Virus record (IMG/VR): IMGVR_UViG_3300036466_000505
Location: 1-53,028 of that record
DNA: 53,028 bases
Source: a virus
Strand: one strand, 5' to 3'
Shown here: positions 36,319 through 53,028 of the stretch, piece by piece
Layout of the letters: every line of letters starts with the position of its first letter
Numbering within the stretch: the first letter of the stretch is position 1
Notes under the pieces: generated by a model
Seen by the model: only the letters and a program-made list of their open reading frames with translations
What the model was told of the DNA's origin: nothing
The model's database searches: none
Translations under genes and position numbers: made by a program

Positions 36319-36401
36319 CCCCAAAGTTGAGGCGAAAGAGAGAAGGCAGCGGCCCAGGGCTGTGGGCGACGGTCGTAAAAAAACAATCGAGGCGACAGGC
36401 A

Positions 36402-37979
36402 ATGGCGAAAACGAAAGGGGATCTGTTCTCCGACTTCCTGAACAAAGTGCAGTCCAAGGTGCCTGTGCAGGAGCAGGCCCCTGGCGGGGTTGGAGAGTGG
36501 GCAATCCAGGCCGGCATCCAGCTGGACCGGGGGCGGTTCAGTTTTCGCAAGCACGAGTTCATGGAAAAGCCGTATGCCGACAATCATCCGTTCCAGGTAG
36601 AGATGAAGTGCACGCAGACCGGCAACTCCACCCGCGCGTTTCTGCGTAAGTTCTGGGCCGGGCTATACATGCCGTTTGTCGGGCTGATGTACCTGTTTCC
36701 GTCCAAGACCGGTTCCGGCGATTTCTCCAAGTCTCGTATTTCGCCGTTTGTCGAGCGTAATCCGGAAACCATCGGCAAATACATTCAGGACACGGACAGC
36801 GTGAGTCTGAAGCGGATTAAGGGGAAGAACTTCTACTTTCGCGGCACCCAGTCCACGGAAGGATTGAGGTCTGACCCTGTTGACTTCATGACGTTCGACG
36901 AATTTGACCTCTTCCCGAAAGGCATTGAAACAGTTGCCCGGGAACGTATGGCCCACTCAGATTACAAGTGGCAGCACTACCTGAGCAACCCGCTTTTGCC
37001 CGACCGCGGCATACACAAGCTGATACAGCAGACAGACGAGCAGCACTGGATGCTGAAGTGCCCCAAATGCGGCAAGTTCACCTGCCTGTCGGACACCGTG
37101 TCTGACGACGATATCGGGTGTCTGGCGGAATGGTCGGACGGCCGCGTGACCCTGCTGTGTACCCATTGCCGGGATGCGGAACTCAATCCTGCCGTTGGAG
37201 AGTGGGTGGCCAAACGGCCCAGCGTGACCGAGCGGCGAGGGTACTGCTACACCCAGCTGTTCAGCCAGTACGTGACCCCGGCCGAGATCCTGCACGCATT
37301 TCGGAACGACCCAAACCGAGCAGGCGTGATGAACTACAAGCTGGGCCTGCCGTATGTCGAGGCCGAGAACCGGCTTTCCATCGAGGAGATTTTGAAGCTG
37401 TGCGGCACGGCAGGAATTTCGTCCAGCGATCCGGGGCCGTGCTGGATGGGGGTTGACCAGGGAAAAGGACTGCATGTGGTGATTGGCCGGCTGCATCCCG
37501 ACAGGGTGGTGTATGTGGCCGAACTGAAGGAGTGGGATGAACTGGATCGGCTCATGGATCAGTTCAATATCCTACGGGCCGTAGTGGATGCCATGCCGGA
37601 ACGTCGCAATGCCCGGGCATTTGCAGACCGGTTCCCGGGAAAGGTGTTCGTGAACTATTACAACGAGCACGCCAGGGACGGCGCGGCCTGGAACGAAGGC
37701 AAGATGGTTGTGTCGTCCAACCGAACCGAGTCCATGGACGAATCCCACCGGCTGCTTCTGAAGGGGCTGATGGGGCTGCCCAAGGACTGCGACGCCGTGC
37801 GTGAATTCGCCGAGCACTGCCATAATGTGGCTAAAAAGCTCGAAGAGAAAGAGGACGGCAGCAAGCGATACGTGTACGTGAAGCTGGGCGCAGACCATTA
37901 CCGCCACGCCTTCAACTACGCGGTACTGGCCAGATCGGCCATGGTGAATTCATATTTCGGAGAAGGGGACTTATCATGA
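36402..37979 (+). CDS. terL: terminase large subunit (GpA-like)
   Basis: 525 residues from ATG 36402 (MAKTKGDLFSDFLNKVQSKV). A TQTGNST-type P-loop region (about 70), a Walker B VDFMTFDEFDLF (about 160-171), then a zinc-finger pair CPKC...CTHC (about 223 and 260) typical of GpA-type large terminases. The nuclease domain follows (WMGVDQGKGLHVVI, RAVVDAMPERRNA, DHYRHAFNYA) with the acidic residues of an RNase H fold. It translocates and cuts DNA at the portal. The gene after it and a TerS candidate follow, an order seen in several podovirus-like genomes. Confidence 0.9.
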   Translation: MAKTKGDLFSDFLNKVQSKVPVQEQAPGGVGEWAIQAGIQLDRGRFSFRKHEFMEKPYADNHPFQVEMKCTQTGNSTRAFLRKFWAGLYMPFVGLMYLFPSKTGSGDFSKSRISPFVERNPETIGKYIQDTDSVSLKRIKGKNFYFRGTQSTEGLRSDPVDFMTFDEFDLFPKGIETVARERMAHSDYKWQHYLSNPLLPDRGIHKLIQQTDEQHWMLKCPKCGKFTCLSDTVSDDDIGCLAEWSDGRVTLLCTHCRDAELNPAVGEWVAKRPSVTERRGYCYTQLFSQYVTPAEILHAFRNDPNRAGVMNYKLGLPYVEAENRLSIEEILKLCGTAGISSSDPGPCWMGVDQGKGLHVVIGRLHPDRVVYVAELKEWDELDRLMDQFNILRAVVDAMPERRNARAFADRFPGKVFVNYYNEHARDGAAWNEGKMVVSSNRTESMDESHRLLLKGLMGLPKDCDAVREFAEHCHNVAKKLEEKEDGSKRYVYVKLGADHYRHAFNYAVLARSAMVNSYFGEGDLS

Positions 37980-41556: not shown

Positions 41557-41638
41557 TGACGGCGGAATCTGTCTTGACCGACACAACACCACGCTGCTCG
41601 GCAGTTACATACAAGCACTGGAATCCGGATACCCATGA
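41366..41638 (+). CDS. Rz1-like outer-membrane spanin lipoprotein
   Basis: Up to 90 residues in another frame over the preceding gene, as for Rz/Rz1. [15 protein letters not shown] is a lipoprotein signal with a lipobox ending at Cys, followed by a Pro-rich start ([12 protein letters not shown]). The start is uncertain, because ATG 41366 gives a long basic n-region. The stop overlaps the portal ATG. Spanins join inner and outer membranes in lysis, which implies a Gram-negative host. Confidence 0.65.
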   Translation: MFSHSSHAWRAHSWPGQKRRRSSGKPISWRKILLAGFAVIFLTSCTPTMMVKPPKPTLTILERDDGGICLDRHNTTLLGSYIQALESGYP

Positions 41639-43569
41639 GTGACACCGTACAGAACATCGGCCGTCTTTTTGCGGCGGAGTTTGAAACCGCTCGTAACGCC
41701 AGGCGCAATCACGAGCAGCGCTGGCTGGACGACCTGCGCGATTACCGCGGCCAGTATGACGAAGCCACGCTGGCCCGACTGGAAAAATCCGGCGGTTCAC
41801 GCCTGTATATCCGGCTCACCAAGCAAAAGGTCAAGACTGTTCTGGCACGACTGATGGATCTGCTGTTCCCGGCCAACGGGGAAAAGAACTGGGGGATCCA
41901 GCCCACGCCCGACCCGGAGCTGCCGCCGGAACAGGTGGCCATGTTTGCCCAGCAGTTCATAGCCCAGACCGGTCAGCCGCCCGGACCCATGGAAACGCAG
42001 CAGTACGTGCGCGAGACCGTCACTAAAGCGGCTGAAGCCATGGGGAAGACCATCGAGGATCAGCTGGCCGAAACCCCTCAGAAGACCGGGTACCGGCAGG
42101 AGATCAAGAAGGTCATCAAGTCCGGACTGGTGTATGGAACCGGCATCCTCAAGGGCCCCCTGGTGACGCGGGCCAGACGACAGGCGTGGGTGCCTGACCC
42201 GGCCACTGGTCAGTTCCGGCTCCAGGAAGTGAAGGGCGACCTGCAGCCGTATTTTGAGTTCGTGCCGATCTGGGACGTGTATCCGGAACCCGAAGCCACG
42301 GAAGTACGGAACTGCCGGTATATCTGGCACGACCACCTGCAGACCAAAGCCGAAGTACTGGACGTGTGCGTGCAGGAACAGATGTTCGACGAGGACCTGG
42401 TGCGCGAATACCTGCGCGACCATCCCGACGGCGACGCCACCATGGAGAACCATGAACAATCTCTGCGCTCCATCGGCGCGGACGAAGCTCCTCGGACCCT
42501 GGACCGCCGATATCGCCTGCATGAGCGATGGGGCATGGTGTCCGCCCGGGACCTGGTCAAGGCGGGCATGGATCTGCCTGATGAGAATGTGGATGAATAT
42601 TTCGCCAATATCTGGCTGCTCGGCGACAAGTGCGTGAAGTGCGTGCTGAATCCCATCGAGGGCGTGCGGTCCTATTTTTATTTCTGGAATTACGACCGGG
42701 ACGAAACCTCGATCTGGGGCGAAGGCATCCCGGCCGATATGCGGGACCCGGCCAAGGGGTTCAACGCCTCCATACGCAAGATGGTGGATTCCTACTCCAT
42801 CTCCGGCCCCATGTTCGGCGTGAACGCCGCAGCCATGGACCCCACCGAAGACCCCCGGGACATCCACGCCAACAAGGCGTTTCTGTTCGAGTCCGCCGAA
42901 GACATCCAGAAGGCTTTGCAGATATGGACCATCCCCGCGTTTATCCAGGACGGGGTGGCCATGACCGGTTTTTTCCAGAATTTTGTGGACGAGGTCACCG
43001 CCCCCCGGTTCATGCAGGGCGACAATCCCACCAAGGGCGCCGGCGGCACTGCCTCGGGGTTGTCCATGCTCATGGGCGCAGTGAACGTGAACCTCAAGGA
43101 TCTGGTCAAAGATTTTGACGACTTCATCACCGCGCCTTTTATCGAGGCACTGTACCACTGGAATATGAACTTCAATCCCCAGCCTGAAACGGCCGGAGAC
43201 TTCGAGGTCGTGGCCCGTGGTTCCACAGCCCTGATGGCGCGGGAGATCCGGGCCCAGCAGCTGATGCAGGCGGCCCAGGTCACGGACTCCCCTCGCTTTC
43301 AGGGCTGGAGCCGGGACGACAAGCTGCTTCGCGAGCTGTTCAAGGCCATGGATGTGGCCGCCACGGACCTGATCAAGACCAAGGAAGAACACCAGGCCGA
43401 GCAGCAGCAGCAGATGGCCCAGCAGGCAGGCATGATTGCCAAGCAGCAGGTCACCGAGACCATGAACGAGATGCGGGCTAGAGGGCTCCAGCCGGAACAG
43501 GCGCTGGTGCAGATGCTCGGACAGAGCGCCCAGGAATTTTTACAGGCCCAGCAGGCCCAGAGGGTGTGA
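41635..43569 (+). CDS. portal protein
   Basis: 644 residues, ATG 41635. A long head-tail connector-type protein with an N-terminal helical region, a central beta/alpha domain (FEFVPIWDVYPEPEATEVRN, FYFWNYDRDETSIWGEGIP) and a Gln-rich C-terminus (EEHQAEQQQQMAQQAGMIAK). Placement directly before scaffold and capsid genes and after terminase confirms the call. It forms the dodecameric DNA entry channel. The length is typical of podovirus-like portals. Confidence 0.88.
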   Translation: MSDTVQNIGRLFAAEFETARNARRNHEQRWLDDLRDYRGQYDEATLARLEKSGGSRLYIRLTKQKVKTVLARLMDLLFPANGEKNWGIQPTPDPELPPEQVAMFAQQFIAQTGQPPGPMETQQYVRETVTKAAEAMGKTIEDQLAETPQKTGYRQEIKKVIKSGLVYGTGILKGPLVTRARRQAWVPDPATGQFRLQEVKGDLQPYFEFVPIWDVYPEPEATEVRNCRYIWHDHLQTKAEVLDVCVQEQMFDEDLVREYLRDHPDGDATMENHEQSLRSIGADEAPRTLDRRYRLHERWGMVSARDLVKAGMDLPDENVDEYFANIWLLGDKCVKCVLNPIEGVRSYFYFWNYDRDETSIWGEGIPADMRDPAKGFNASIRKMVDSYSISGPMFGVNAAAMDPTEDPRDIHANKAFLFESAEDIQKALQIWTIPAFIQDGVAMTGFFQNFVDEVTAPRFMQGDNPTKGAGGTASGLSMLMGAVNVNLKDLVKDFDDFITAPFIEALYHWNMNFNPQPETAGDFEVVARGSTALMAREIRAQQLMQAAQVTDSPRFQGWSRDDKLLRELFKAMDVAATDLIKTKEEHQAEQQQQMAQQAGMIAKQQVTETMNEMRARGLQPEQALVQMLGQSAQEFLQAQQAQRV

Positions 43570-44971: not shown

Positions 44972-46009
44972 ATGCCTACCGGAACAACCTCTTACGGGGA
45001 CATTTCCCCTCGTACTGCCGCGTATGTAATCAAGGATTTTCTGGCCGTGGGGCTGCCGTATGTGGTGTTTGAGCCTTTTCTTCAGGCGAAAACCATCCCG
45101 CAGGGCAACTCGAAATCCATTGATTTTCGTCGATACAAGGCCTTGGACGCCACTCCGAATGCCCTGACCGAAGGCGTTACGCCGTCTTCCAAAAAGCTGG
45201 AAGCTGAGGACGTAACAGCCACGCTTGTGCAGTACGGTGATTCCGTCACCCTGACTGACGTGGTGTTGGACACACACGAAGATCCGACCTTGAAAATTGC
45301 CACAGAACGCCTGGGGGAACAGGCAGGGGAAATGATTGAACGGACCCGGTTCGGGGTAATGAAGGCCGGCACGAATGTCTTTTATGCCAACGGGACCACT
45401 CGGTCCGCAGTGAACACGCCACTGACAAGATCTCTCCAGCGCAAGGTTGTCCGGGGGATGAAACGGCAGCGGGCCAAGAAAATTACAAAGGCCCTGAATT
45501 CCACGCCGGCATACGGCACTGTGTCTGTGCCCGCGGCGTTTATCGGGGTCGTGCACCCCGACCTGGAGTCCGACGTTCGGGAGATGGAAGGGTTTAAGGA
45601 TGTGGTCGATTACGGACAGGTTACACCGTACCCTAACGAGATCGGGGAGGTGGAAGGTGTTCGGTATCTACTGACAGACTTGAGTGAGCCGTGGGAAGAT
45701 GCAGGAGGCGTTTTTGACGGGTCGGGCACGGAGATGCTGTCCACCTCCGGAGCCAACGCCGACGTATATCCCGTTATTTATATCGCCCGGGACTGTGCGG
45801 GTACGGTCGCACTGCGCGGGTACGGGCAGAAGAACAATAACGGGAAGATGAAGATGGTCAGTCCCGTCAAGGTAATGGTTGTCAATCCGAAGCCGTCGGA
45901 TTCCGACCGTCTGGCCCAGCGCGGCCATGCGGGTTGGAAGACCTACGCGCAGACTGTTATTTTGAACGATCTCTGGATGGCCCGGGCTGAAGTGGCCGCC
46001 ACCGACTAA
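44972..46009 (+). CDS. major capsid protein (HK97-fold expected)
   Basis: 345 residues, ATG 44972 after TAGGAG. Typical N-terminus (MPTGTTSYGDISPRTAAYVI) and internal blocks (FEPFLQAKTIPQGNSKSIDFRRY, LGEQAGEMIERTRFGVMKAG, GVVHPDLESDVREMEGF) match the N4-like/gp10-related major capsid style. It follows the scaffold by 12 bp. Confidence 0.88.
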   Translation: MPTGTTSYGDISPRTAAYVIKDFLAVGLPYVVFEPFLQAKTIPQGNSKSIDFRRYKALDATPNALTEGVTPSSKKLEAEDVTATLVQYGDSVTLTDVVLDTHEDPTLKIATERLGEQAGEMIERTRFGVMKAGTNVFYANGTTRSAVNTPLTRSLQRKVVRGMKRQRAKKITKALNSTPAYGTVSVPAAFIGVVHPDLESDVREMEGFKDVVDYGQVTPYPNEIGEVEGVRYLLTDLSEPWEDAGGVFDGSGTEMLSTSGANADVYPVIYIARDCAGTVALRGYGQKNNNGKMKMVSPVKVMVVNPKPSDSDRLAQRGHAGWKTYAQTVILNDLWMARAEVAATD

Positions 46010-46506: not shown

Positions 46507-47127
46507 ATGGCCACTGCGGCAGAACTGATTTCCAGGGCGTGGACCCTGCTCCTGGATGGCGGCAGCCGGTATACGGAATCGGCCATGCTGGCCAACCTGA
46601 ACGAGGCGATCGTCGAAGCCGTCGCTCTGAAGCCGGATTTGAACCTGATCGAAACGGCCGTCACCCTGGGGTCCGGCCCGCGTCAGGAACTTCCAGCGGA
46701 CGGACTGCTCCTGGAGCGGATCATCCGTAACGAGACAGGGCAGCGCATCGAGATCATCAACCCGGACGTGCTGGCCATGCAGGACCCGGAATGGGGGTCC
46801 AGGACCGGAACAGTGGTCACCCATGCCTGGGCCGACCCGAAAGACCACAAGGTGTTTTACGTGTATCCGGCCGCCGCCGGGGAGCAGATCCGTATTCAGT
46901 ATGCGGCCGGCCCCGATGCCCTGACCGCCACGACAGAGAGTGTGCCCCTGGACGGCACGGCCCACGGCGCCCTGGTGGACTATCTTGTGTACCGGGCGCT
47001 CTCTATTGACGACGATGCCGGCGACAAGGCCACTGCCCAGACCGCATATAAGTCGTTTCTGGCCAAACTGGGCGCCAGGGATTCCCGCGAGGAACATGAC
47101 CGACCCCGGCCCGGAGGTGCCTCATGA
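46507..47127 (+). CDS. head-tail adaptor-type protein
   Basis: 206 residues, ATG 46507. A helical N-terminus (LISRAWTLLLDGGSRYTESAMLANLNEAIVEA), then beta-rich, ending in a helical Asp/Arg-rich tail. The pattern is that of DUF6682-type phage adaptor proteins that sit under the portal. Coupled (ATGA) to the next gene. Confidence 0.7.
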   Translation: MATAAELISRAWTLLLDGGSRYTESAMLANLNEAIVEAVALKPDLNLIETAVTLGSGPRQELPADGLLLERIIRNETGQRIEIINPDVLAMQDPEWGSRTGTVVTHAWADPKDHKVFYVYPAAAGEQIRIQYAAGPDALTATTESVPLDGTAHGALVDYLVYRALSIDDDAGDKATAQTAYKSFLAKLGARDSREEHDRPRPGGAS

Positions 47128-47690
47128 CCGCCATTACCGACCTGATTCCGGATATCCGCCTGGAAGTGCCCGGGTGCATCGACCTGACCATCACCCGGGA
47201 GCTTCGAAATGCCGCCCGGGAGTTCTGCGAAAAAACCGGATGCTGGGAGGTCATCCTGGATGATGTCAGCCTGGTCGAAGGGCAGGACACCTATTCGCTT
47301 GTCCTGCCGGGCGAATCCTCTTTGGTATCCATCACGGCCGTGACCCGGGACGGCCAGCCTTTTGACGCCTACCGGCTTCACCTTCCGGATCTGGAACTGG
47401 TCCTGAACCATGTTCCCACGGAAACAGCCGCCCTGTCCGTCACCGCTCTGCTTATGCCCACCCGCACGGCCACCACAGTGCCGGACATTCTGGAACGGGA
47501 TTACTACGACGGCGTGCGGGCCCTGACTCTGTACCGGCTTATGCGCCAGGCCGGCGTGCCGTGGAACAACCCTTCCATGGCCGCGCACTATAAAGCGGAA
47601 GCCAGGCGCCTGATGGGCAGGGCCACGGTCCGGCGGTGGAGGGAACGATCCGGCGAGGCCATGCATGTGCGGCCGCAACCTTTTTTCTGA
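47124..47690 (+). CDS. head-tail adaptor / stopper-type protein
   Basis: 188 residues, ATG 47124. IPDIRLEVPGCIDLTITRELRNAAREFCEKTGCWE and ERDYYDGVRALTLYRLMRQ helices flank a beta domain, as in the connector proteins that follow the portal in podovirus-like phages. Overlaps the previous gene by 4 bp. Confidence 0.7.
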   Translation: MTAITDLIPDIRLEVPGCIDLTITRELRNAAREFCEKTGCWEVILDDVSLVEGQDTYSLVLPGESSLVSITAVTRDGQPFDAYRLHLPDLELVLNHVPTETAALSVTALLMPTRTATTVPDILERDYYDGVRALTLYRLMRQAGVPWNNPSMAAHYKAEARRLMGRATVRRWRERSGEAMHVRPQPFF

Positions 47691-47999: not shown

Positions 48000-48166
48000 G
48001 CGTCCTTTCTTCCGGCGGCGGCAGTGGTGCGGAACAGCAATTCGTCCTTGAGGTTGAAGAGGCGCTTACGACGACATCCGCCCTCAACGACTCCAATTTA
48101 GGATTGCTCGATTACCTGTATAGAACCATTTTACGATATCATCTTACCGAAGCGGGAGTGATCTGA
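47996..48166 (+). CDS. tiny protein upstream of the DGR target
   Basis: 56 residues, ATG 47996 (MSVLSSGGGSGAEQQFVLEV); the stop overlaps the next ATG (TGATG). Its length, frame and overlaps fill the gap exactly. Not similar to Avd, so probably a structural helper of the target. Function unknown. Confidence 0.6.
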   Translation: MSVLSSGGGSGAEQQFVLEVEEALTTTSALNDSNLGLLDYLYRTILRYHLTEAGVI

Positions 48167-49728
48167 TGGCAGTCATCAATAACCTTGTACTGGCCCGAAA
48201 CGCGGACAACACCATTCAGGTGGACACTGCGTATTATGACCTGAACACAAAAGCGGGGGCGTTGGTCGACGACCTGGTCACGTTCCTGCAAGCGGCCGTA
48301 TCGGATGTGGATGCGTATGTACCCGGGCGCGTGGATGCGTTGTTTGACCAGGAATTGGGCAGTACGGTCTATACCCAGGGCGAAATTGACGCCATGCTGG
48401 AACGGGTCAATGAAACCACCCTTGCATCGCTTGGTGCGCAGGGAGCAATGTACGACCCTGTGTCGGATTCCTGGACCGCGCTCGGCGGCGACGTAAACGA
48501 GTGGCAGAACCTCTTTCGCGGGTACGTGTACAACCGATCTGATGAAGTGGTCTATTTCCTGAACCCCACGGACTGGTCGTACAAATACGCATGGGAGTAC
48601 GACGCAAACCTGCCCTATGCCACAGGCGCATACTGCACCCTGTCCGGAACCACATACAAAGCACTCCAGTCCGCCAAAGGCAAAGACCCTGCAACAGAGA
48701 CCACGTACTGGACCGTTACCGCAGACACCCCGGAGTCCATTCTGGCCAGCACGGACGGGACGGACGGCGCTGTAGGTGTGCTGGTGCCTGCCGGGTATAC
48801 AGCCAGATATACTCGTTCCGGGAAGTCCTATTTCTGGTGCTCTCTTGCACCGTTGCCTGGTCTGGCACTCGACCCGGCATTTCTGCCCGGAGGTATCCCG
48901 GTGACCCACCGGACCTTCGGGGCGTATGAATCCATTCTGTATGATGATTCCGCGTCTGCCTACATAGACGGCACCGGTGATTCCGACGCCACCTCGCTTG
49001 TTGATCTGGGCAACGATTACCTTGCTCCGGTGTCCGGGAAAAAGCCGTGGACAGGGCTGACCAGAGCGGAGAACCGCGCACTGCACAGCAACTTTTCCAC
49101 CAAGGCCCATCTTCAGGACTACATTTTCCGCAACGATCTGCTCCGGCACCTCTTTGTATGCGAACACAGAACGTGGGATAGCGAATCCGTTATTCCCGGG
49201 CATTGTGACGATTCTTATGATTATGCAAACGTATCCGTCACCGGCCTGACAGACTACCTCGGAAACGGATCGGGTTCGTACAAGCCTGATACGTTATATT
49301 TGGCGAACCGGTATCGCGGCATTGAAAATCCCTTTGGGGATGTGTGGGAGTTTGTGGACGGGATCAACTTTAATGACTGGAAACCGTACATAACCAGAGA
49401 TCCGCACGGTTGCGCGGACGACGTGGACGACACCAACAGCTCGTATGCCTATGTGAGGGCATCCGACGAAAACGGAAATGTCATTACTTGCCCGGACTCC
49501 AGCAACTACCAGAAATTCCTGTGGCCGGGGACGTTTTTGCCGCAGTCTGTCGGAGGTGCCAGCTCCACCTATATCACCGATCCCTGGTACCAGAACCCCG
49601 GCTGGCGGGTCCTGCGGGTGGGCGGCCGTTTGAGCAGTGGTCGTCAGGCGGGGCTCGGGTATCTGAGTGCGTATAGCGCTTCCACGTATGCGAATTGGAA
49701 TTTCGGGGGGCGGGCTGCCCTCGCTTAA
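48166..49728 (+). CDS. DGR target protein, putative receptor-binding protein
   Basis: 520 residues, ATG 48166. An N-terminal helical/attachment region (1-100), a middle containing carbohydrate-binding-like YxTGAYCTLSGTTYKALQS and a C-terminal domain of formylglycine-generating-enzyme/C-type-lectin type. The last 42 residues (479-520) are the variable repeat. Substituted sites fall in codons of surface loops between conserved GLGYL and ANWN. The target is diversified by adenine-specific mutagenic retrohoming from the template at 49853. Recognising varying host surfaces is inferred from other phage DGRs. Confidence 0.88.
   Translation: MAVINNLVLARNADNTIQVDTAYYDLNTKAGALVDDLVTFLQAAVSDVDAYVPGRVDALFDQELGSTVYTQGEIDAMLERVNETTLASLGAQGAMYDPVSDSWTALGGDVNEWQNLFRGYVYNRSDEVVYFLNPTDWSYKYAWEYDANLPYATGAYCTLSGTTYKALQSAKGKDPATETTYWTVTADTPESILASTDGTDGAVGVLVPAGYTARYTRSGKSYFWCSLAPLPGLALDPAFLPGGIPVTHRTFGAYESILYDDSASAYIDGTGDSDATSLVDLGNDYLAPVSGKKPWTGLTRAENRALHSNFSTKAHLQDYIFRNDLLRHLFVCEHRTWDSESVIPGHCDDSYDYANVSVTGLTDYLGNGSGSYKPDTLYLANRYRGIENPFGDVWEFVDGINFNDWKPYITRDPHGCADDVDDTNSSYAYVRASDENGNVITCPDSSNYQKFLWPGTFLPQSVGGASSTYITDPWYQNPGWRVLRVGGRLSSGRQAGLGYLSAYSASTYANWNFGGRAALA
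49599..49726 (+). repeat. DGR variable repeat (VR)
   Basis: Aligns without gaps to 49853-49980 (offset 254). 22 differences: 21 are at adenines in the template (A to G, C or T), one is a T-to-C at 49722. The VR ends at the target gene's stop, and its terminal GC-rich stretch GGCTGCCC is the initiation-of-mutagenic-homology candidate. Confidence 0.93.
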
Positions 49729-49852
49729 AACGCAGCGCGGCGGAACCGCTGGACGAAGGCACGAAGGCACGCGGTACGCAAACCGCAAAACGCAACGCGA
49801 AACGCTTGCCTTCGCTCTACCTCATGGTTAAACAGTTCTCAGGCAAACGCGG
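49729..49852 (+). other. VR-TR spacer with hairpins
   Basis: 124 bp, no real gene. Two short hairpins: CAGCG...CGCTG (49733-49751) and GCGGT-ACGCAA-ACCGC (49771-49786), both just downstream of the VR, where DGRs need a hairpin or cruciform for retrohoming. Rich in ACGC-type repeats. Confidence 0.6.
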
Positions 49853-49980
49853 AAGCTGGCAGGTCCTGCAAGTGGGCGGCAATTTGAACAATGGTCGTAA
49901 AGCAGGGCTCGGGTATCTGAATGCGAATAACGATTCCACGAATGCGAATTGGAATATCAGGGGGCAGGCTGCCCATGCTT
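49853..49980 (+). repeat. DGR template repeat (TR)
   Basis: 128 bp, the adenine-rich version of the VR. Its reading in the VR frame, SWQVLQVGGNLNNGRKAGLG, keeps AAC/AAT codons at the variable positions, the codon type whose adenines yield the widest set of amino acids. A short open frame from 49695 is a shadow. Confidence 0.93.
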
Positions 49981-50093
49981 CTGCATAAAAAATCAACCCC
50001 GCGTTTGCCTTGGCTCTTGCCAAAAAATAACAGTTTCATCCCTTGCGCGTTGGTAGGGCAACCGAAAACGACCGGGAGCAGAAGCGAGAAAAA

Positions 50094-51152
50094 GTGAAGC
50101 GACACGGAAATCTGTATCCGAAAATCATTGAAGTTGAAAACATTCTTCTTGCACATAGAAAGGCGCGCCTTGGAAAGGCACATTATCTTGACGTGCAGAT
50201 GGTTAACCAAAACGAGCACGAACACTGCACAAGAATACATGACATTCTGAAGAAAAAAGAGTATTCTGACATTGGTTACAAGGTCAGACATATTCAGGAC
50301 ATGGGGAAGACGAGGACTATCTACGTACTCGACTACTACCCGCACCGGATCATTCAGTGGGCCATGGCTCTTGAGCTGGTGCCGATCTGGAAGCCGACGC
50401 TGATTACAGACACTTATTCCAGTATCGATGGGCGCGGCCTGCACGACGCGGCCAAGCGGGTAAGAAAGTGGATGCACGACCGGGACGCCTGCCGGCACTG
50501 TCTGAAAATGGACGTGCGGCACTTTTACCCGAGCGTAGATCACGATGTGATGAAGTCTATTCTGCGTCGCAAGATCAAATGCAAAGACACGCTCTGGCTA
50601 CTGGACCTGATTATCGACTCTGCCCCGGGCCTGCCCATCGGGAACTACCTGTCACAATATCTGGGCAATGTGTATCTGGCAGGGTTGGACCACTGGATGA
50701 AGCAGGAGATCGAAGCACGGCATTACATGCGTTACTGCGACGATCTGGTTGTGTTCATGTCCGACAAGAAGGAGCTGCACGACCTGCGGTGCCGGGTGGA
50801 TGAAAAGCTGGCAGCGCTGAAGTTGGAGATGAAAGGGAACCACCAGGTGTTTCCGGCGTATGAGCGCGGGGTGGACTTTATGGGGTACCGGTTTTTTGGG
50901 TCTCACGTGCTGGTCCGCAAGTCCATCAAGCAGGCGTTTAAGAAACGGGTCAGGTACATCAAGCGGCACGGCCATCGCCTTCCACCCAGGCAGGTCATTA
51001 ATCCGCTGATGAGTTATTACGGCTGGCTGAAGCACTGCGACGCCAGAAACCTTTGGAACACTTACATCGATAGTGACGTTCGCATGGTCGTGGCGTCTGC
51101 GGCCAGACGGGCAAATATGAAAAACCCAATGGAGAACATCTCATGGCAGTAA
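50094..51152 (+). CDS. DGR reverse transcriptase
   Basis: 352 residues from GTG 50094 (read M-KRHGNLYPK); a TTG at 50043 would add 17 residues. Motifs: CLKMDVRHFYPSVDHD (palm A), GLPIGNYLSQ (179-188; the GxxxSQ signature of DGR reverse transcriptases rather than the QGxxxSP of group II introns) and YCDD (214-217; catalytic YxDD). A thumb-like basic region follows (KRVRYIKRHGHRLPPRQV). It copies the template RNA and misincorporates at adenines. It lies about 110 bp downstream of the template repeat. Confidence 0.95.
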   Translation: MKRHGNLYPKIIEVENILLAHRKARLGKAHYLDVQMVNQNEHEHCTRIHDILKKKEYSDIGYKVRHIQDMGKTRTIYVLDYYPHRIIQWAMALELVPIWKPTLITDTYSSIDGRGLHDAAKRVRKWMHDRDACRHCLKMDVRHFYPSVDHDVMKSILRRKIKCKDTLWLLDLIIDSAPGLPIGNYLSQYLGNVYLAGLDHWMKQEIEARHYMRYCDDLVVFMSDKKELHDLRCRVDEKLAALKLEMKGNHQVFPAYERGVDFMGYRFFGSHVLVRKSIKQAFKKRVRYIKRHGHRLPPRQVINPLMSYYGWLKHCDARNLWNTYIDSDVRMVVASAARRANMKNPMENISWQ

Positions 51153-51481
51153 GAATCTGCAATCAGACAGAGGCCCCGGCCCGTGCGTTTCGGCACGGCA
51201 CTAATGTGATCGTCACTCGCAACGTCACCGAGAAAACAGACGACGAGGGCAATGTGTCGTATGACTTCGAGGCCTACACCCTGCCTGCCGCCCCCTTGCC
51301 CGATCCGGACCAGTATTGTTTGGACAACTATGCTGCCATTCGAGAAGCGGTCATCCTGGCGCATTGGCCCCAGAAGGCGCAGAACGAGGCGGCCATGGAA
51401 GATGCCATGGGCAGGCCGGAGAAGCTGGCCGAGTACATCGCGTTCAAGGACGCGCTGGACGAGGAGTTTCCCAAGCCGTGA
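51143..51481 (+). CDS. small protein after the reverse transcriptase
   Basis: 112 residues, ATG 51143, overlapping the end of the RT gene by 10 bp. An N-terminal beta part (AVRICNQTEAPARAFRHGTN) is followed by an acidic helical tail (AQNEAAMEDAMGRPEKLAEY). Looks like a small phage tail/fibre accessory protein. It is not the basic helical bundle expected of Avd. Confidence 0.65.
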   Translation: MAVRICNQTEAPARAFRHGTNVIVTRNVTEKTDDEGNVSYDFEAYTLPAAPLPDPDQYCLDNYAAIREAVILAHWPQKAQNEAAMEDAMGRPEKLAEYIAFKDALDEEFPKP

Positions 51482-51783
51482 TGCACAGATTCTCCGAGTT
51501 CGCGGAAGAGGAAGGGCCGCTTGCAGGAGACAAGGTGCGGATCGAGGACCTGTTGGGCCGGGATATCGAAATTCTGGCCTATCGCCTCGGTCCGTCGCGG
51601 TACCCGGACAAGTCAGAAAGCGGAAAATACCTGCAACTGCAATTCCGCTTTTCCGACGAAGACGCTCTACGGTGCATGTTTACCGGCTCAGGTGTGTTGA
51701 TTCGACAACTGGAAAAATACCACGACAAAATACCGTTTCTGGCCTCGATCGAGCGTCGGGGACGGTGTTTTACGTTTGTATGA
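51481..51783 (+). CDS. small protein, possible DGR accessory or ssDNA-binding
   Basis: 100 residues, ATG 51481 overlapping the previous stop (TGATG). GPLAGDKVRIEDLLGRDIEI, ESGKYLQLQFRF and FTGSGVLIRQLEKY form a compact beta-rich pattern like a small OB fold. From memory, similar genes recur beside DGR reverse transcriptases in other phages, so an accessory role is proposed; this cannot be checked here. The standard accessory gene avd is not seen. Confidence 0.55.
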   Translation: MHRFSEFAEEEGPLAGDKVRIEDLLGRDIEILAYRLGPSRYPDKSESGKYLQLQFRFSDEDALRCMFTGSGVLIRQLEKYHDKIPFLASIERRGRCFTFV

Positions 51784-52163
51784 AAAAAATACCAAGCACC
51801 GAACTCCGCGCCGTCCTGCGCTCTGCGTGGCCGGAAGCGGATATCCGGCTCCCGGACAAGTCCTACATTCTGCCGACAAGGCACCGGATATGGGACGAGC
51901 TGGTTTCCAGCTACTTTGAGGACTACACCTATCAGGCCGACATTCTGGACTGCGACGACTATGCTCTGCTGCTGCACGCCTGGATCAGGCAACAGCAGTA
52001 CCGGGAACAGTGGCCCAACCCCCTTGCTTTTGGCGAGGCATGGAGCAGAACACATGCACTCAACATCGTTGTATTGGACGACAAGACTGTGCGCCTGGTG
52101 GAACCCCAGACGGACGGCTTTGTTGCTCCTGACGATCACGATATTATTTTTATCCGGATGTAA
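51780..52163 (+). CDS. MOA/agglutinin-C-like papain-fold protein
   Basis: 127 residues, ATG 51780 (ATGA overlap). Cys58 in ILDCDDYALLL, His92 in SRTHALNIVV and Glu108 in LVEPQT are spaced like the Cys-His-Glu triad of the Marasmius oreades agglutinin C-terminal protease-like domain, a family also found in phages. Candidate cysteine hydrolase carried near virion genes. Activity unproven. Confidence 0.65.
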   Translation: MKKIPSTELRAVLRSAWPEADIRLPDKSYILPTRHRIWDELVSSYFEDYTYQADILDCDDYALLLHAWIRQQQYREQWPNPLAFGEAWSRTHALNIVVLDDKTVRLVEPQTDGFVAPDDHDIIFIRM

Positions 52164-52206: not shown

Positions 52207-53028
52207 AAATCCAATTCCAGAATCCCCAGGGAATGCGCCCACGTCTCCGCCCGGATAAACTGCCGGACAACTACGCGCAAACAGCCACGGATTGCGACTT
52301 TCGGTCCGGGGTGCTGGCTCCCGTACCCGGCTCGCTCGAGGTCAAGTCCCTCCCCAAGCCGGGCACCCTTCGCACGCTGTACAAGCACGGTTCCCGGTTT
52401 CTGGCCTTTCCCGGCAACGTGGATGTCATTGAATCGCCGATTGCCGACGCGGATGGCCGTTTTGCCTGGACAGGCGGGGGCAAGCCCATGCAGTCCAACG
52501 ACACCATGGCCTTTGCTGCCGGGTACCCGGAGTCGGGTTGGCCCGCCATCACCAGGACGCTCGGCGTGCCGTATCCGGCCGCCCCGCTGACCATTGCGCT
52601 GTCCGGCACGGCAGGCGACGAGGTCGAGCACTCCTACTCCTACTGCTACACATACGTCACAGAATGGGGTGAAGAGTCGGCAAACTCCCTCCCCACCGGC
52701 CTGACCGATATCTATGCAGGCCAGACCGTTACGCTGACCGGGTTCACCGTGCCGAGCGTGTCCGGCCTGGTTGTCGACAAATTCCGGATTTATCGCTCGG
52801 AAGCCACTTCTTCCGGGGGCGCTGTCTGGGAACTGGTGGCCGAAGTGGAGGAAACCACTTCGGAATGGGAGGACACAGCCGCAAGCGCCCTGGACGATAC
52901 CCTGGATACCGAGACCTGGATACCGGCCCCGGACGATATGCAGGGGCTTATTCTGACGTCAGGCGGAATCGCCGTGGGGTTTTCGGGTAAAGAACTGTAT
53001 CTGTCCGAGCCGTTTGTCATGTATGCCT
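52203..53028 (+). CDS. phage virion structural protein, 5' part (gene crosses the window join)
   Basis: ATG 52203 (MKIQFQNPQGMRPRLRPDKL). The frame runs to the window end and continues in phase at base 1 after the 127-bp overlap; the 3' part is described there. The N-terminal half contains a fibronectin-like block (EVEHSYSYCYTYVTEWGEES, VVDKFRIYRSEATSSGGAVW). Total length about 538 residues. Likely tail/fibre-adaptor structural protein. Confidence 0.8.
   Translation, partial: MKIQFQNPQGMRPRLRPDKLPDNYAQTATDCDFRSGVLAPVPGSLEVKSLPKPGTLRTLYKHGSRFLAFPGNVDVIESPIADADGRFAWTGGGKPMQSNDTMAFAAGYPESGWPAITRTLGVPYPAAPLTIALSGTAGDEVEHSYSYCYTYVTEWGEESANSLPTGLTDIYAGQTVTLTGFTVPSVSGLVVDKFRIYRSEATSSGGAVWELVAEVEETTSEWEDTAASALDDTLDTETWIPAPDDMQGLILTSGGIAVGFSGKELYLSEPFVMYA
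52902..53028. repeat. terminal direct repeat, copy 2 (circular overlap)
   Basis: Identical to 1-127; see that entry. Confidence 0.9.

Follow-up and report, generated by a model that had tools for sequence, protein, structure and literature searches.

We found that the window, by which we mean the whole analysed stretch of 53,028 nucleotides (the entire viral record), carries a genuine diversity-generating retroelement (DGR), and we put the probability of this at about 0.98. The element is of a known kind, the phage DGR with a C-type-lectin tail target, because its repeats differ only at adenines, its reverse transcriptase (RT) is kin to those of DGRs, its target is TaqVP-like and a conserved RNA lies in the spacer. 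The initial annotation had called the DGR complete; the repeats, the RT and the target all stand, but no Avd was found and the cassette has an OB-fold gene instead. The cassette is also larger than first reported, and should be taken to contain a spacer RNA at 50006-50092 and to extend to 51783, through the OB gene. Its features are as follows.

48166-49728, plus strand: DGR target gene, a 520-aa tail protein with a C-terminal C-type-lectin (FGE-type) domain
49601-49720, plus strand: variable repeat (VR), core (49599-49726 in the initial annotation)
49855-49974, plus strand: template repeat (TR), core (49853-49980 in the initial annotation)
50006-50092, plus strand: structured spacer RNA, RT-17-like, between TR and RT (covariation, Rfam RF03020)
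50094-51152, plus strand: DGR reverse transcriptase (probable GTG start; BPP-1 bRT match, phrog_1423, tree)
51143-51481, plus strand: 112-aa ORF overlapping the RT stop
51481-51783, plus strand: 100-aa OB-fold-like protein, proposed DGR accessory

The VR and the TR align without gaps at an offset of 254 bp, in agreement with the 128-bp pair described earlier. Over those 128 bp we counted 22 differences, 21 of which are at TR adenines (13 A>G, 4 A>C and 4 A>T, read from TR to VR; binomial P = 1.3e-11 for at least 21 of 22 at adenine, given 34 A in 128), and the sole non-adenine difference is a T>C at 49722, at the 3' edge. With a score-based finder, the pair shrinks to a core of 120 bp in which 18 of 18 differences are at TR adenines and 13 of the 31 TR adenines are unchanged; the differences at 49721-49722 coincide with or lie beyond the real 3' end of the repeats, where VR and TR diverge. 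When the same finder was keyed on C, G or T, it returned no pair between 44001 and 52000. The 3' end of the VR coincides with the stop codon of the target gene. Adenines are changed at all three codon positions (6 of 13 at the first, 9 of 15 at the second and 3 of 3 at the third), and template mutagenesis therefore fits the pattern better than selection at the protein level. Of the TR codons, 19 bear an adenine, nine are AAY and one could be turned into a stop. Following the VR, we looked for a hairpin of the BPP-1 type (7-10 bp stem, GRNA loop) and found no perfect stem of at least 6 bp and no better folding than in shuffled sequences.

Judging from the sequence, the DGR is probably working at present. 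Alternatively, it was once active and is now fixed or defective, with the VR differences as relics of earlier homing. This would fit the finding that no close relative with a different VR came to light (a search of viral contigs for other VR versions of this phage, using the TR-derived pattern with free adenines, returned none), and it would fit related records that keep the target and the OB gene without a detected RT. However, the RT frame, the catalytic motifs, the TR, the spacer RNA and the target frame are all intact, and the repeat core is without non-adenine differences, which indicates little drift since the last homing. We consider an element that has already fallen silent to be improbable.

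For the RT, GTG 50094 is the most likely start codon; the first TTG of the frame is at 50043. This GTG lies 113 nt past the TR end of the initial annotation, which had correctly given the distance as 110 bp, and both of the motifs named there are present, as IGNYLSQ (GNYLSQ) and YCDD; the DGR RT motif has been defined as (I/V/L)GxxxSQ (PMC3521204). phrog_1423 matches the RT at E 4e-105, and the best match among solved structures is the BPP-1 bRT at 134 bits, followed by a group II RT at 58.6 bits. In a tree of 92 RTs, a branch (99*) separates the four group II RTs from the window RT, BPP-1, LBR48, ANMV-1 and the IMG/VR relatives, so that the RT falls with the DGR RTs, as first proposed; long branches make the position of BPP-1 and ANMV-1 within the DGR side unsure. 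By one automatic rule, an adenine-only TR/VR pair is present at 71 of 84 RT loci (window included), with the TR mostly slightly more than 100 nt upstream of the RT, and in many of the loci without such a pair the contig stops close to the RT. Keyed on other bases, the rule gave 0 (C), 2 (T) and 15 (G) pairs at the 84 loci, and the 15 G-keyed pairs are plausibly adenine pairs read in reverse. These results bear on the possibility that the RT belongs to a group II intron, a retron or a defence system and has nothing to do with the repeats. Partial matches to general RT models of these classes do occur, but all are far below the cut-offs, for those models that have one, and the 76-bit lead of BPP-1 bRT among solved structures, the separation from group II RTs in the tree and the adenine-only repeats that adjoin the relatives' RTs make this exceedingly unlikely. 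In two loci (L026, 3487-3786; L031, 2900-3199), a second adenine-only pair lies some 2-3 kb further upstream than the first and away from the RT's pair; these loci possibly have two TRs each.

Within the 113-nt spacer between TR and RT, we found covarying helices in an alignment of 14 loci. In these helices 95% of cells are paired, double changes occur in 9 of 11 pairs, and 0 of 500 shuffles reached as high a covariation score, a test that is somewhat favoured by a structure derived from the same alignment; the signal was lost when partners were slid. The window spacer resembles Rfam RT-17 (RF03020) in its position before the RT and aligns to it at full length (E 0.0076), although at 27 bits it is below the curated cut-off of 40.4. 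Among relatives, 9 of the 16 searched have RT-17 above the cut-off just upstream of the RT. In BPP-1, the RNA of the TR-brt spacer recruits bRT-Avd and primes cDNA (PMC12875486), and by analogy the spacer RNA in the window may have a similar role.

The target matches phrog_5302 (tail protein) at E 3e-50. We modelled its C-terminal 330 residues (191-520) from 54 sequences (pLDDT 89.6), and the best structural match is TaqVP of Thermus aquaticus (PDB 5vf4), a DGR variable protein, at Z 26.4 over 260 residues with 20% identity, followed by TvpA (13.0) and Mtd (12.4); formylglycine-generating enzymes are also among the matches. The model thus bears out the earlier suggestion that the VR lies in a lectin-like C-terminal domain. 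The protein context differs from that of TaqVP, as the domain in the window ends a phage tail protein. Given the fold match, the variable residues would be clustered on one face, and fold and gene position together make receptor binding by the target likely. By homology, the target may be the host-range determinant.

Downstream, stop-to-start overlaps link the RT, the 112-aa ORF, the 100-aa ORF and a 127-aa ORF. The 100-aa ORF has no match in Pfam or PHROG. Its model (pLDDT 89.5) has the strand order b-b-b-a-b-b, which is OB topology, and the structural neighbours include SSB, Rim1 and PriB at Z 5-6, scores that do not by themselves establish the fold; Foldseek gave no match with E < 0.001. 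The 112-aa ORF has no family match. It was considered as an accessory gene and rejected, since in L089, a short record in which no RT was found, a homologue comes directly after the target, and the ORF is probably a partner of the target protein and not of the RT. The 127-aa ORF that follows the OB gene (51780-52163) has a weak Agglutinin_C match (E 7e-5, below the cut-off).

When we searched the window for Avd with PF22296 (bAvd), there was no match; the same model found BPP-1 Avd at E 2e-37, although a very divergent Avd may have escaped it. Two other searches were uninformative: PF05635 had no match anywhere, BPP-1 included, and single-sequence Avd queries, which returned their own source records only, say nothing about a distant Avd. 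An H. canis ORF used as one such query overlies its TR and is probably spurious.

To relate the OB gene to the RT, we used loci anchored on either gene. Of 83 RT-anchored loci, a profile search found the OB gene next to the RT in 51 and not in the other 32. When loci were found via the OB alignment instead (IMG/VR and GTDB genomes), the fetched stretch had an RT match, in a few cases partial, in 93 of 97; this alignment was built from RT-adjacent members, and the two samples have some contigs in common and are not fully independent. In three of the four OB-anchored loci without an RT, the contig breaks off within 160 bp. On the RT tree, OB presence is clustered, requiring 12 to 13 changes as compared to about 28 to 29 in shuffles, and the gene appears to be mostly inherited with the RT and sometimes gained or lost.

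The OB gene could nevertheless lie outside the DGR machinery, as a hitchhiker next to the cassette that serves tail assembly or some other phage function. It is separated from the RT by the 112-aa ORF in the window, five records have the OB gene (whole or as fragments) with a DGR-type target and no detected RT, and in target-anchored loci the RT-OB association is not significant (P 0.15). In contrast, the OB gene abuts or overlaps the RT stop in most loci, in bacterial and archaeal viruses alike, and overlap with the stop codon is frequent in the OB-anchored loci. It lies between VR and TR, which is the place of avd in BPP-1, in L016 (1409-1708) and L019 (1583-1882), and in L054 (5854-7245) a full DGR RT is fused to an OB-fold protein in a single open frame. 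We consider a hitchhiking gene unlikely, if by no means negligible, and favour the reading that ORF 51481-51783 is a functional DGR accessory. From its model, we propose that the OB protein may be a single-strand-binding accessory that replaces Avd. A wider and more tentative proposal, for which we would not quite offer even odds, is that this small OB-fold family is a dedicated accessory of a large viral DGR lineage without recognisable Avd, binding cDNA or RT-RNA and driving mutagenic retrohoming in bacterial and archaeal viruses.

L270 was rejected as a second RT-OB fusion; there, an RT remnant is joined to an OB protein, perhaps by an assembly join. In L195 (1797-4336), L135 (6019-7484) and L159 (6001-7303), the OB gene is present with no detected RT, and in L135 and L159 it follows a DGR-type target; these three are either decayed DGRs or targets served from elsewhere.

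Taken together, these data are very probably explained by a phage DGR in which a spacer RNA would recruit the RT and the OB protein would probably have an Avd-like job. The TR and the 3' spacer would be transcribed together, the spacer RNA would fold and recruit the RT, and the RT would make cDNA that is random at template adenines. With this cDNA in place of the VR, where the tail-protein gene has its 3' end, as many as 18 residues in the C-type-lectin tip could vary, and by the code this would allow about 4.7e16 proteins. The OB protein, encoded in the same string of overlapping genes, would probably bind the cDNA in its single-stranded state or else the complex of RT and RNA, and act much as Avd does in BPP-1.

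The closest known arrangement is that of Bordetella phage BPP-1 (mtd-avd-TR-brt), also a phage element, in which the VR is likewise at the 3' end of a gene for a tail protein with a C-type-lectin fold, the TR is just upstream of a homologous RT and the differences are adenine-directed; a structured TR-RT spacer RNA is present in BPP-1-type DGRs and in the window too. Unlike BPP-1, the window has no Avd that we could find, no clear hairpin after the VR and an OB-fold gene downstream, and of 26 BPP-1 proteins compared with the window Brt alone matches by sequence. The archaeal virus ANMV-1 (Paul et al., 2015, PMC4372165) has the window's order of target, TR and RT and then, directly after the RT, the OB family, which also follows the RT in the archaeal virus vir525 and is annotated 'hypothetical protein' in both. 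ANMV-1 differs from the window in being an archaeal virus, in its distant RT and in the lack of a 112-aa ORF between RT and OB gene. An 'Avd' ORF is drawn in ANMV-1 by Paul et al., 2015 (PMC4372165), and the text does not specify which ORF this is.

DGR accessory proteins that have already been named are Avd, HRDC and MSL. According to PMC10053308, Wu et al., 2018 (doi 10.1093/nar/gkx1150) suggested a further DGR-associated protein without Pfam; as described there, it is, like the OB family, DGR-linked and in no Pfam or CDD family. We found no description of an OB-fold DGR accessory in the literature searched, a body of work that lies outside Wu et al., 2018, and, compared by description only, the priority of the OB family over that protein is uncertain. 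Phage DGRs are well known as such, and what is added here is a third component that is open to test. Avd is the helper of DGR reverse transcription that has been studied best, yet this element and dozens of relatives, in which no Avd is recognised, have an OB-fold gene next to the RT, together with a conserved RT-17-type spacer RNA. RT, RNA and OB protein would form a defined system for studying the synthesis and integration of mutagenised cDNA without Avd, a poorly understood step, and the OB gene could be used as a marker for such elements in metagenomes.

The ends of the window are identical over 127 bp (1-127 and 52902-53028), and the genome is therefore probably complete and circularly assembled, with a length of 52,901 bp. 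Its structural genes appear podovirus-like from their families.

36327-37979: terminase
41635-43569: portal/head-tail adaptor
44972-46009: major head protein
46507-47127: SU10-type adaptor (neck)
47124-47690: virion protein (neck)
52203 to 918, across the join of the record ends: internal virion/tail protein, 538 aa

The DGR lies between the last neck gene and the gene for the internal virion/tail protein, and the placement beside neck and tail genes given in the initial annotation is correct. We found no DNA-level relatives of the window among phage records, and single RT or target protein sequences found no close relatives in IMG/VR, where alignments were needed as queries. Terminase relatives reach 75% identity, and the RT was not found in their records. 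In a related 60-kb phage record (L173), the terminase, portal, head and virion proteins are shared with the window in a similar general order and our search found no RT; within this phage group the cassette thus seems to be a variable module. Elsewhere in the genome, 7640-18046 encodes a 3468-aa protein with matches to ddrB-like ParB, helicase and, weakly, methyltransferase, which we take to be of the DarB antirestriction type.
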